From positions 64,001-85,941 of IMG/VR virus record IMGVR_UViG_3300043433_000105: a DNA stretch of 21,941 bases; one strand, 5' to 3'. The translations under genes were made by a program, and so were the position numbers. Numbering within the stretch: the first letter of the stretch is position 1; every line of letters starts with the position of its first letter. Source of the DNA: a virus. A model generated the notes under the pieces. It made no database searches and had not been told where the DNA came from. It saw only the letters and a list, made by a program, of their open reading frames with translations. Shown piece after piece: positions 12,010 to 20,729 of the stretch.

Positions 12010-12468
12010 TTATTCTTGTTTCTGAAAATATTTATACACATGCGCCTTTGCTACTCGCATGTTTACGATACCGTTGTAAGTTTCATCATACGAAATTTCC
12101 ATCACTCTTGCTGCAAACTGATATTTGGCTTCGAGGTATGACGCATGAGACTTACTCAAACAAAATTCTAAAATCTCTCGGGTAAAGGCATCCTCACCCA
12201 AAGTTTCAACATCCTTCAACAACTCGGTAGAACTACCCCAGTAGGTAGGCCAGTCAGAAGGTACCAGACTCTTGATCTTCTTTACTTTTTTGTTGCCATT
12301 CTTTAGCTTAACCGTTTTTTGTGTGGTTTTCTGAAAGAAGCAAAGTTTTTTTCCGAGGTAAAATTTACCATCAGATTTCCGTGTAATCTTGTACACAAAA
12401 GAAAAAGCATCGCTAGGTATTTGATCCTGCGATGCTATTGTAACACCGTTGTATGTCCACTGACTCAT
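12010..12468 (-). CDS. GIY-YIG-family phage protein (Seg-like), last gene of the replication operon
   Basis: The product has 152 residues. It has a compact GIY-YIG domain: FVYKITR (24-30) as the GIY strand, KFYLGKK (35-41) as the YIG strand, a lysine-rich insert (48-67), YWGSS (76-80), REIL (97-100) and a Glu in ASYLEAKYQF (E113) as the probable metal ligand. Similar proteins are widespread in T4-related phages and are annotated as putative endonucleases. Unlike the two larger GIY-YIG genes in this window it lies on the same strand as its neighbours and has no recognition domain, so it may be a resident gene rather than a mobile one. AGGAG precedes the ATG at 12468. Confidence 0.75.
   Translation of the reverse strand: MSQWTYNGVTIASQDQIPSDAFSFVYKITRKSDGKFYLGKKLCFFQKTTQKTVKLKNGNKKVKKIKSLVPSDWPTYWGSSTELLKDVETLGEDAFTREILEFCLSKSHASYLEAKYQFAARVMEISYDETYNGIVNMRVAKAHVYKYFQKQE
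12029..12036 (-). promoter_or_regulatory. T4-type late promoter (exact octamer) for esterase and 343-residue genes
   Basis: TATAAATA on the minus strand, 56 nt upstream of the ATG at 11973 and inside the last codons of the preceding gene. The distance and orientation suit a functional late promoter, which in T4 needs the gp55/gp33/gp45 machinery. Confidence 0.65.
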
Positions 12469-18692: not shown

Positions 18693-19133
18693 TTATCCAC
18701 CACTTAAAAATTTCTGGTATTCCACCATGCTTTTAAACAAATAATATCGATTCCCAAGGTCTTTCAAAATAGACTCACATGATTGCATCAACGACTCGAT
18801 ATAAAGCGTCTGCTCTTGCAACTTCTGCAAATCAGCATCACCTTCCAACAGTGCCTCCATTTCCGCCTTTAACGGTTTGCGAAACAGGTACTGCGACCAA
18901 CCCTTTGCATCAAGTTCTGCCTTGGGCATTTCCCCGTTGTAGTAGCGAACTTTATCACTACGGAGAGACAAGTATTTAGCGGTCATCTGACGCAGCTTGA
19001 CCTTGTAAGTTTGGAGATGCGTGAGATACTTGCTGTGTTTCATCGGATGCCGATACATCTCATTCAACAGATTTGTCTCGTCAAGGTCAGAGTCTTGTGC
19101 CCACTCAGTCATGAGTTGTTCGTGATTCAACAT
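18693..19133 (-). CDS. uvsY: UvsY-like recombination mediator
   Basis: The product has 146 residues, close to T4 UvsY (137). UvsY loads the UvsX recombinase onto ssDNA coated with gp32. The sequence is helical and charged. It has the family pattern: an N-terminal HSKYLTHLQTYK helix, SDKVRYYNGE (the 'DK..YY.G' element), a middle DADLQKLQEQTLYIESLMQSCESILKDLGNRYY, and the C-terminal LFKSMVEYQKFLSGG. I chose the ATG at 19133: a longer start at 19157 would lie inside the -10 of the promoter. Adjacent uvsW supports the call. It is the first gene of the operon. Confidence 0.82.
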   Translation of the reverse strand: MLNHEQLMTEWAQDSDLDETNLLNEMYRHPMKHSKYLTHLQTYKVKLRQMTAKYLSLRSDKVRYYNGEMPKAELDAKGWSQYLFRKPLKAEMEALLEGDADLQKLQEQTLYIESLMQSCESILKDLGNRYYLFKSMVEYQKFLSGG

Positions 19134-19155
19134 AAAATTACACCATAAATAGAAC

Positions 19156-19184
19156 ATTGTAGCTCATGTGAAAAGCGAAGTCAA
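19156..19184 (-). promoter_or_regulatory. Strong sigma70-type promoter of the uvsY operon
   Basis: On the minus strand: -35 TTGACT (19184-19179), 17-nt spacer, -10 TACAAT (19161-19156), both 5 of 6 with ideal spacing. The start point would lie about 15 nt before the uvsY ATG. No other strong promoter was seen inside the seven-gene operon. Confidence 0.8.
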
Positions 19185-19190
19185 GGGTTC

Positions 19191-19218
19191 TTGACATTTT
19201 TTCAAGTGAGTAAATAAT
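19191..19218 (+). promoter_or_regulatory. Strong sigma70-type promoter for the putative structured RNA
   Basis: On the plus strand: perfect -35 TTGACA (19191-19196), 16-nt spacer, -10 AATAAT (19213-19218, 5 of 6). It lies back to back with the uvsY promoter; the two -35 boxes are 6 bp apart in a TCAAG/CTTGA inverted repeat. No open reading frame follows, so its product should be an RNA. Confidence 0.7.
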
Positions 19219-19224
19219 AAGAAC

Positions 19225-19774
19225 TTGTAGCCAGTTTGGTGGTACTTAACTAGCTATTTATGCCTCGTGATGGGCACGTACCAAAAAAGTCACCGTCTTT
19301 ACTTGCTGTTTGAGCAGACGTTAAAGAACCTAGGGTAGCGCCCTATACAACTATGAAAACAAGCTACCACCTGTTTACTAAGCAACCCGCAGGAAGTATG
19401 TCTCATCTGGGCATACAAGACACGACACACCGAAAGGCATGATTTTAACTCAGTTGTGTGGAGAGCACTACCACATAGGAGTCTGAGCGTTGGAGCAATT
19501 CAACGATAAAAACTCTGTCGATAATTGGATAAGATTGAATGACCAGTACGACTCAATACGAGATACGGAAAATCATAAGAGCTAGAGACATAAACACTCT
19601 CTTCGAAGCAGCAACGTATAGACACAGGAACTAAAAGAATAGATCGATAAGACCAACAGAACGTAATTAAACCCATTGTAGTAGAAACACCTAATAAGTG
19701 CCTACGGCAAGGCTACGCCTGTACATCTTTTCCTATTCTTTTAGTTCTCTTGATTTATCATGCTGCGGGTTGCT
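19225..19774 (+). ncRNA. Putative large structured non-coding RNA (about 550 nt)
   Basis: No gene is found in 19158-19784 on either strand, yet the stretch is rich in nested complementary segments. Two long-range helices are 19381-19392 with 19763-19774 (12 bp) and, inside it, 19628-19642 with 19733-19747 (15 bp). Local stems are 19240-19245/19278-19283 (around 19261-19264/19273-19276), 19294-19297/19317-19320, 19331-19335/19341-19345, 19396-19400/19412-19416, and 19449-19453/19483-19487 enclosing 19457-19461/19471-19475. A CCGAAAGG tetraloop-like element occurs near 19430. A strong plus-strand promoter lies just upstream. The size and ornate folding recall phage RNAs such as GOLLD and ROOL, but I cannot match it to either, and it may be new. 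The 3' end is uncertain; no T-rich terminator is seen. Confidence 0.6.
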
Positions 19775-19800
19775 GACTGCCTGTTTATATACCTAACCAA
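19759..19800 (+). repeat. Direct repeat, left copy
   Basis: CATGCTGCGGGTTGCT, a variable 9-nt stretch, then TTTATA and TACCTAACCAA. The same blocks occur at 20649-20691 on the other side of the homing-endonuclease gene. The left copy includes the last codons and stop of that gene (minus strand) and the 3' arm of the RNA's 12-bp helix. Confidence 0.8.
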
Positions 19801-20566
19801 GTATATTGTATGCATAATGAATTTAGTTGATCAATTGATAGTGATCGAGTGTCAATAACTCTACATTTCATTAGAGTGTCTGAAACAGCTTTAGATGGGT
19901 TATTCTGTGTCCATTTTCTTATTTGAGAATATGTTAAATCTTTATAAAATCGGCTTATAATTAAAAATTTTGATGTTATATACTTATCATCAATAATGTA
20001 CAGGTTTATAGCACGTGCTGATTCTACATGCAAAATTGGTGTTGGGGTTTGTTCAGAAATTTTGACTATTTTACCAGTTATTAACGATTTAACACAACGA
20101 CCAACTTTTTGTTTTTTACTGGCTTCTGACATGTTAAGTAGTGATTTTTTGATGTGATTTTTCTGACAATTCTTGATTTTGCCATTTTTTGACGAAATTC
20201 TGTACATTTATACTTTTCGTTTAATATGTTAGATCGTGTCTTTTTACTCAAATCAGTAATCTTAGTATTAGTTACACCATCACCACCAGATGTGCGGTTT
20301 TGAAGTATCCCATTACCGATGTCTTTACGACCCCACCATTCTATCAGTCTACGCTCTAATGCTAAAGCACCTAAATCAGTTAAATTAGATTCCAATATCA
20401 CAATATGGTTTCTATTTTTAGGCAGATGAAGTTTCCCATGTTTAGCCCAAGCACGGTTTCCTGTACCCTTTCCAATATAGTATGGTGTACCAGCTTTAGC
20501 TGTAGTAGAATCACTAGAACGCAAGTATGCGTAAACATAGAATCGATAAATAGAATCGCTGCTCAT
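19785..20566 (-). pseudogene. GIY-YIG homing endonuclease split by a -1 frameshift
   Basis: The 5' part (20566 to 20081) encodes the GIY-YIG domain: [41 protein letters not shown], closely similar to the intact gene at 8667-9479. The 3' part (to 19785) is in the -1 frame and continues with [18 protein letters not shown] and a C-terminal region. Joining the frames at A_AAA_AAT (20150-20144) gives about 260 residues, close to the 270 of the intact relative. The heptamer fits the X_XXY_YYZ pattern of programmed -1 frameshifting, but a simple indel in a 6-A run or a sequencing error is as likely. The start is taken at 20566 behind AAAGG, as in the other copy. The gene lies between ~42-bp direct repeats at the edge of the putative RNA. 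Confidence 0.75.
20144..20150 (-). promoter_or_regulatory. Possible slippery heptamer A_AAA_AAT
   Basis: In the frame of the nuclease domain the codons read TCA AAA AAT; slipping back one base gives AAA AAA TCA and enters the frame of the C-terminal part. No convincing downstream stimulatory stem was noticed. Confidence 0.35.
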
Positions 20567-20631
20567 ATAGCCTTTCATGTTGGTTGAGTAGAGACAGTGG
20601 ATATTGACGTATCGCGACTGTCATTTCTATT
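20567..20631 (-). promoter_or_regulatory. Conserved hairpin leader of the split GIY-YIG gene
   Basis: This is the same arrangement as at 8597-8666: AAATAGAAATGACAGTCGCGA, an internal segment, then CCACTGTC, CTCTACTCAACCAAC, ATGAAAGG and the start. The stem is 20617-20622 with 20593-20598. The inner bases differ from the other copy yet can still pair (GATA with TATC), suggesting selection for structure. Confidence 0.65.
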
Positions 20632-20648
20632 TATTGTTTTTAAACTCT

Positions 20649-20691
20649 CATGCTGCGGGTTGCTCTATGGTTATTTATAATACCTAACCAA
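20649..20691 (+). repeat. Direct repeat, right copy
   Basis: CATGCTGCGGGTTGCT, variable stretch, TTTATAATACCTAACCAA: the second copy of the repeat at 19759-19800, about 890 bp away. It also carries CTGCGGGTTGCT (20653-20664), able to pair with 19381-19392. A third fragment, TCATGCTGC, is at 20700-20708. Confidence 0.8.
20672..20679 (-). promoter_or_regulatory. T4-type late promoter (exact octamer) for the split homing endonuclease
   Basis: TATAAATA on the minus strand, about 106 nt upstream of the ATG at 20566 and inside the right direct repeat. The left repeat has a one-mismatch version (TATAAACA). Confidence 0.6.
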
Positions 20692-20729
20692 ACATGTGAT
20701 CATGCTGCACGAAGTCAGATATAGAATCG

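Follow-up and report, generated by a model that had tools for sequence, protein, structure and literature searches.

Our window covers the final 22 kb of an 86-kb phage fragment from IMG/VR and encodes a large structured RNA on the plus strand (19225-19790), and the fold of this RNA is real, because its base pairs have been kept through compensating mutations in related phages and in one bacterium. The T4-type genes of the window are uvsY, uvsW, primase, nrdA and nrdB. The RNA is divergent from uvsY (18693-19157, minus strand; Pfam PF11056, phrog_231), and between uvsY and an endonuclease-like gene (20081-20578, minus strand) no open reading frame exceeds 58 amino acids. Likewise, all open reading frames that overlap the RNA on either strand have at most 58 codons, and the one of 58 has no PHROG match. 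Compared with the closest homologue (L004, described below), 9 of the 12 insertions and deletions are not multiples of three and break any reading frame. Thus the protein-coding signal that the initial annotation had named as a possible refutation of an RNA is absent from the stretch.

A sigma70-type promoter of the form TTGACA-16-AATAAT lies at 19191-19218 on the plus strand and matches the consensus at 11 of 12 positions, which bears out the near-consensus plus-strand promoter proposed earlier. We estimated the ends of the RNA from this promoter and from the outer helix: it starts at about 19225 and ends at about 19775-19790. Its 3' end has not been mapped, and no terminator was recognised there. 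The left limit first given for the stretch, 19191, is the -35 box of the promoter.

Homologues at two phage loci and in one bacterium

The closest homologue, L004, was found in a 198-kb phage at the same site beside uvsY. At 85.6% identity to the RNA of the window, it is more similar than the uvsY-uvsW DNA of the two phages, which is 78.1% identical. A second, diverged copy in the genome of L004 (63% identity in a local alignment) occupies a 582-nt gene-free stretch directly upstream of a late sigma factor gene of the gp55 type. Searching IMG/VR phage contigs with the core pattern GATNAAAACTCNGTCGATAA yielded four further homologues, L015, L018, L020 and L022. Two types of site could be distinguished: one at which the RNA is divergent from uvsY (L004 and L022) and one at which it directly precedes gp55 in the same orientation (L012, L015 and L018), with both types present in the 198-kb phage. 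L020 is probably at a uvsY-type site too, as it lies behind gp19, where the phage of L006 has uvsY next. L019 is a duplicate of L015; the latter comes from a 178-kb phage, the source of L007 as well.

Applied to sequenced bacterial genomes, the core pattern gave one true homologue, L064, which lies on the chromosome of Ramlibacter rhizophilus with an integrase gene about 2 kb away. A covariance model of the most conserved core (model R1) was run on samples of about 400 genomes each from the family, order and phylum of Ramlibacter and matched Ramlibacter only. From this we infer that the RNA is rare in bacteria and that the bacterial copy is probably carried by a mobile element. R1 scored the window at 160 bits and L064 at 71 bits; the window had been used in building the model and L064 had not. 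Membership in the new family, defined by the R1 core, the covarying helices P6, P8, P9 and P10 and the outer helix P4, is met.

Named phages and plasmids gave no credible blastn match to the RNA, and R1 had none in T4 (11 bits), phiM12, phiN3, HTVC008M, S-CRM01, X1, V45v66, BUCT-ZZ01 and C48C1. Two pattern matches (L017 and L021) were left out, as they resemble coding sequence, and five others (L035, L037, L040, L044 and L063) were not accepted at 18-19 bits. The last pattern scan gave no new homologue. We also rejected an 850-nt gene-free stretch beside uvsY in L006, from a more distant phage, which is not recognisable as a member. This stretch (4080-4925 of L006, minus strand) has a 31-nt sequence that is repeated exactly (GTGACGAGTACCACTTAAAACTACTGTTCTG) and a long hairpin that is nearly perfect, and it may be another large RNA; it matched neither R1 nor Rfam.

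Fold, covariation and strand

The two perfect helices on which the RNA was originally proposed, one of 15 bp (19628-19642/19733-19747) and one of 12 bp (19381-19392/19763-19774), are exactly where they were placed, the first inside the second. When 19191-19790 was shuffled 500 times with its dinucleotides preserved, a perfect inverted repeat of 15 bp never arose, and repeats of at least 12 bp arose in 8 of the shuffles. The longer match is therefore beyond chance, as had been argued from a rough count; the 12-bp match alone would be marginal, yet it covaries strongly in homologues.

Its core, the closing helix P4 (19382-19389/19766-19773), is the clearest case of covariation, with entirely different pairs in other lineages. 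P4 reads GCAACCCG/CGGGUUGC in the window, GAAAGCAG/CUGCUUUC in L015, CGCAGCCG/CGGCUGCG in L018, ACGCCCCG/CGGGGCGU in L020 and CAAAGCCG/CGGCUUUG in the Ramlibacter copy. It is present in 6 of the 7 other sequences; L022 is cut by the end of its contig. The 5' domain (19241-19282) begins with helix P1 (19241-19245/19278-19282), which is GGUAC/GUACC in the window and GACAC/GUGUC, UGUGC/GCACA or UGCAC/GUGCA in homologues, and which encloses an inner stem (19261-19264/19273-19276). The loop of this stem pairs with the strand that follows P1 in a pseudoknot-type interaction (19267-19270/19290-19293), for which homologues have GUGA/UCAC, ACGA/UCGU and CCUA/UAGG. Hairpin P3 (19331-19335/19341-19345) also covaries, and a possible second pseudoknot (19334-19339/19363-19368) was seen in the window only. 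Hairpin P5 (19396-19416) has interior G-U wobbles on the plus strand in several families.

The most conserved part of the RNA is the core described by R1 (19421-19582), with invariant strings such as AAAACUCNGUCGAUAA. It comprises P6 (19423-19427/19516-19520), a CC-GAAA-GG hairpin (19430-19437), P8 (19449-19453/19483-19487) with P8a, P9 (19488-19494/19499-19505) and P10 (19539-19542/19573-19576) with P10a. Hairpin P11 and a conserved UUCGAAGNAG follow at 19584-19602. The 15-bp helix belongs to a variable 3' domain (19628-19747); it is kept, with compensatory changes, in L004 only (GAAUUAAAGAAUA/UAUUCUUUAAUUC) and is not recognisable in distant homologues.

Covariation of the core was assessed on only eight distinct sequences. 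In a plain MAFFT alignment of seven of them, 94.8% of cells were paired and 16 of the 25 pairs had changes on both sides, with the caveat that these seven sequences had also supplied the structure. After re-alignment to the model and addition of L064, 97.9% of cells were standard pairs and 17 of 25 pairs were compensatory, a result reached in none of 500 shuffles; this alignment is fitted to the structure and hence biased towards it. When pairing partners were slid by one to three columns as a control, 24-38% of cells were paired and two to five pairs had two-sided changes. Over the whole RNA, the strands of 14 hand-placed helices paired at 100% within their own sequence and at 64% when strands were mixed between sequences. 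The first of these values is built in, because pairing was the criterion by which the helices were selected; two-sided changes were found in 50 of their 61 pairs. A lack of covarying pairs among homologues would have refuted the RNA, and these data show the opposite.

Several observations bear on which strand is the RNA. The hand-placed helices contain 24 G-U cells and no A-C cells when read on the plus strand. This count was not blind and leans to the plus strand, for which the helices had been placed. A blind look at the pairs at helix ends gave no strand signal; it is uninformative, as the helices are bordered by unpaired bases that are themselves conserved. Folding energy does not decide either: 19225-19790 is more stable than all of 100 shuffles on the plus strand, but its z score of -3.1 compares with -2.6 for the opposite strand, and the RNAalifold energies of -104.9 and -106.7 do not separate the strands. 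All five phage loci scanned (the window, L004, L012, L015 and L018) have a TTGACA promoter with a spacing of 16-17 nt ahead of the RNA and on its strand, and L022 has TTGACT and TAACAT 16 nt apart, as judged by eye. On the basis of the wobbles and promoters, we assign the RNA to the plus strand with high confidence. On the minus strand, T4 late-promoter-like (T)ATAAATA strings occur inside and behind the RNA (19252-19261 and 20672-20679), and these could yield antisense transcripts towards uvsY late in infection.

Relation to known large RNAs

A search of 4,227 Rfam families, including group I and II introns and tmRNA, gave no match to the RNA at gathering or permissive thresholds, and ARAGORN found no tRNA or tmRNA in the window. 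ROOL is a large phage RNA (about 580-660 nt) with elaborate helices and pseudoknots, no coding capacity and unknown function, and GOLLD is a large ornate RNA of phages and prophages that is reported to rise during lysis; both form RNA-only cages (PMC12286853). The new RNA resembles ROOL in its size, its ornate helices and pseudoknots and its lack of coding, and it shares with GOLLD the character of a large ornate phage RNA, although it is smaller. However, the ROOL model (RF03087) found nothing in 19100-20700 at E values up to 10. It also had no match in eight genomes, which is a weak test because control genomes gave none either. The GOLLD model (RF02032), which covers a conserved 3' region, had no match at the RNA loci and none over threshold, its best score being 7.5 bits elsewhere in the genome of L004.

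ROOL frequently, although not always, lies near phage tRNA genes, and no tRNA gene was found in the window or beside the homologues. The tRNAs of the 198-kb phage occupy about 68-86 kb, and its two RNAs, at 43.5 and 175.5 kb, are more than 20 kb away. This tRNA island (L083 and L084) has sixteen tRNA matches and several gene-free stretches of 0.6-1.8 kb, for which Rfam gives only tRNAs.

Because there is neither a covariance match nor a tRNA neighbourhood, the new RNA is not a member of GOLLD or ROOL. The family is in no public RNA library that we searched, and by sequence it is unrelated to either of them. Together with the homologues and the covariation, this upholds the initial annotation, which had suggested that a large structured RNA of a new kind lies divergent from uvsY and had seen no feature that assigned it to these families. 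A literature search that did not reach most subscription journals and preprints found no description of it. Large gene-free transcripts have been described in other virulent phages, among them the ~800-nt noncoding RNA of ICP1 and the long noncoding RNAs of phage K (PMC7567579, PMC9241854). These come from different phages and hosts, and we have not compared their sequences one by one. Very few bacterial or phage RNAs this large and conserved are known, most of them without a known function, and this covariance-supported family shows that T4-type phages carry such RNAs too.

Possible roles and the neighbouring endonuclease gene

We favour, with a probability of roughly 0.7, a stand-alone noncoding RNA of about 550 nt that acts in trans, is expressed early on the plus strand under a sigma70-type promoter of its own and adopts a large structure of several helices and one or more pseudoknots. 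What is observed directly is homology, covariation, the lack of coding, similarly placed promoter-like sites and the presence of two paralogous loci in a single genome. Early transcription by the host RNA polymerase is inferred from the promoter without transcript data; the product would then fold into the large structure described above, and its action in trans, of which no effect has been demonstrated, is likewise an inference.

The orientation of neighbouring genes makes a stand-alone RNA the most likely reading and bears on whether the RNA might instead be a cis-acting leader or switch for gp55, or for uvsY through antisense. In three families (L012, L015 and L018) gp55 follows directly behind the RNA on its strand, so that a cis role of these copies is not excluded. 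However, a separate strong TTGACA promoter stands between the RNA and gp55 in L012 and L018. At uvsY, sizeable genes on the other strand lie behind the RNA in the window, L004 and L020, which argues against a cis leader at these loci, and the RNA is directed away from uvsY in the window, L004 and L022. We therefore give regulation in cis little weight. The main rival is a role in replication, as an R-loop or primer like those of T4 ori(uvsY) or ColE1 RNAII, with two loci serving as two origins, because T4 has an annotated origin (ori(uvsY), or oriF) at this gene. The size of the RNA is like that of ColE1 RNAII, and both RNA loci of the 198-kb phage are near local minima of cumulative GC skew. 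Yet the T4 primer is the uvsY transcript and runs in the uvsY direction, whereas the new RNA is divergent from uvsY, on the opposite strand, and has a paralogue at gp55. GC skew, moreover, largely follows gene strand, and third-position skew showed no clear switch save a mild one near 42 kb. A primer would also not be expected, by our inference, to need so many conserved unpaired stretches, and we consider an origin RNA unlikely.

It is also conceivable that the RNA is a selfish mobile element, intron-like or other, without benefit to the phage, given its two sites in one genome, the integrase near the Ramlibacter copy and the endonuclease gene beside the window copy. But no Rfam intron family matched, the RNA is intergenic and leaves all genes intact, L004 lacks a neighbouring endonuclease gene, and the constant position within each locus type agrees with vertical descent; this explanation seems very unlikely. 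That the complementarity is accidental or a DNA-level signal without any RNA could draw only on the frequency of 12-bp repeats in shuffles. Compensation in most pairs of the hand-placed helices cannot be chance, and G-U wobbles within helices point to RNA, so this reading is already refuted unless the alignments are wrong throughout.

How a stand-alone trans-acting RNA might work is a matter of conjecture. It may be a compact, perhaps self-assembling particle like GOLLD and ROOL, although no oligomerisation has been shown, and such a particle might bind or enclose a host or phage factor, for which we have no partner. Two copies could provide more dose or two specificities, which is again a guess. 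That the family is a new class of ornate large RNA in T4-type phages and an integrated bacterial element, acting as a self-assembling particle or ribozyme in early takeover, is possible but a tentative proposal. The paired loci of one genome provide two diverged versions for natural comparison, and the compensatory pairs in the alignment are open to direct testing.

The gene directly behind the RNA (20081-20578, minus strand) is of the GIY-YIG homing endonuclease type; among its relatives are genes annotated as an intron-associated endonuclease and as a NUMOD3 protein. Beyond it, at 20630-20691 on the plus strand, the 3' end of the RNA occurs again in imperfect form (72% over 50 nt), with CTGCGGGTTGC and also ATACCTAACCAA, so that 19740-19800 and 20630-20691 form an imperfect 60-nt direct repeat flanking the endonuclease gene. 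In the sequence past the outer helix, the L004 flank is more similar to the far copy than to the near one. The simplest reading is that an endonuclease cassette was inserted at the 3' end of the RNA gene and left the outer helix whole. In the endonuclease-like region (19785-20578, minus strand), the gene seems to be divided between two overlapping frames, 20081-20578 and 19785-20207, possibly by a frameshift or decay. Elsewhere in the window, a SegE-type GIY-YIG endonuclease gene (PF19835) is present at 12010-12468 on the minus strand.
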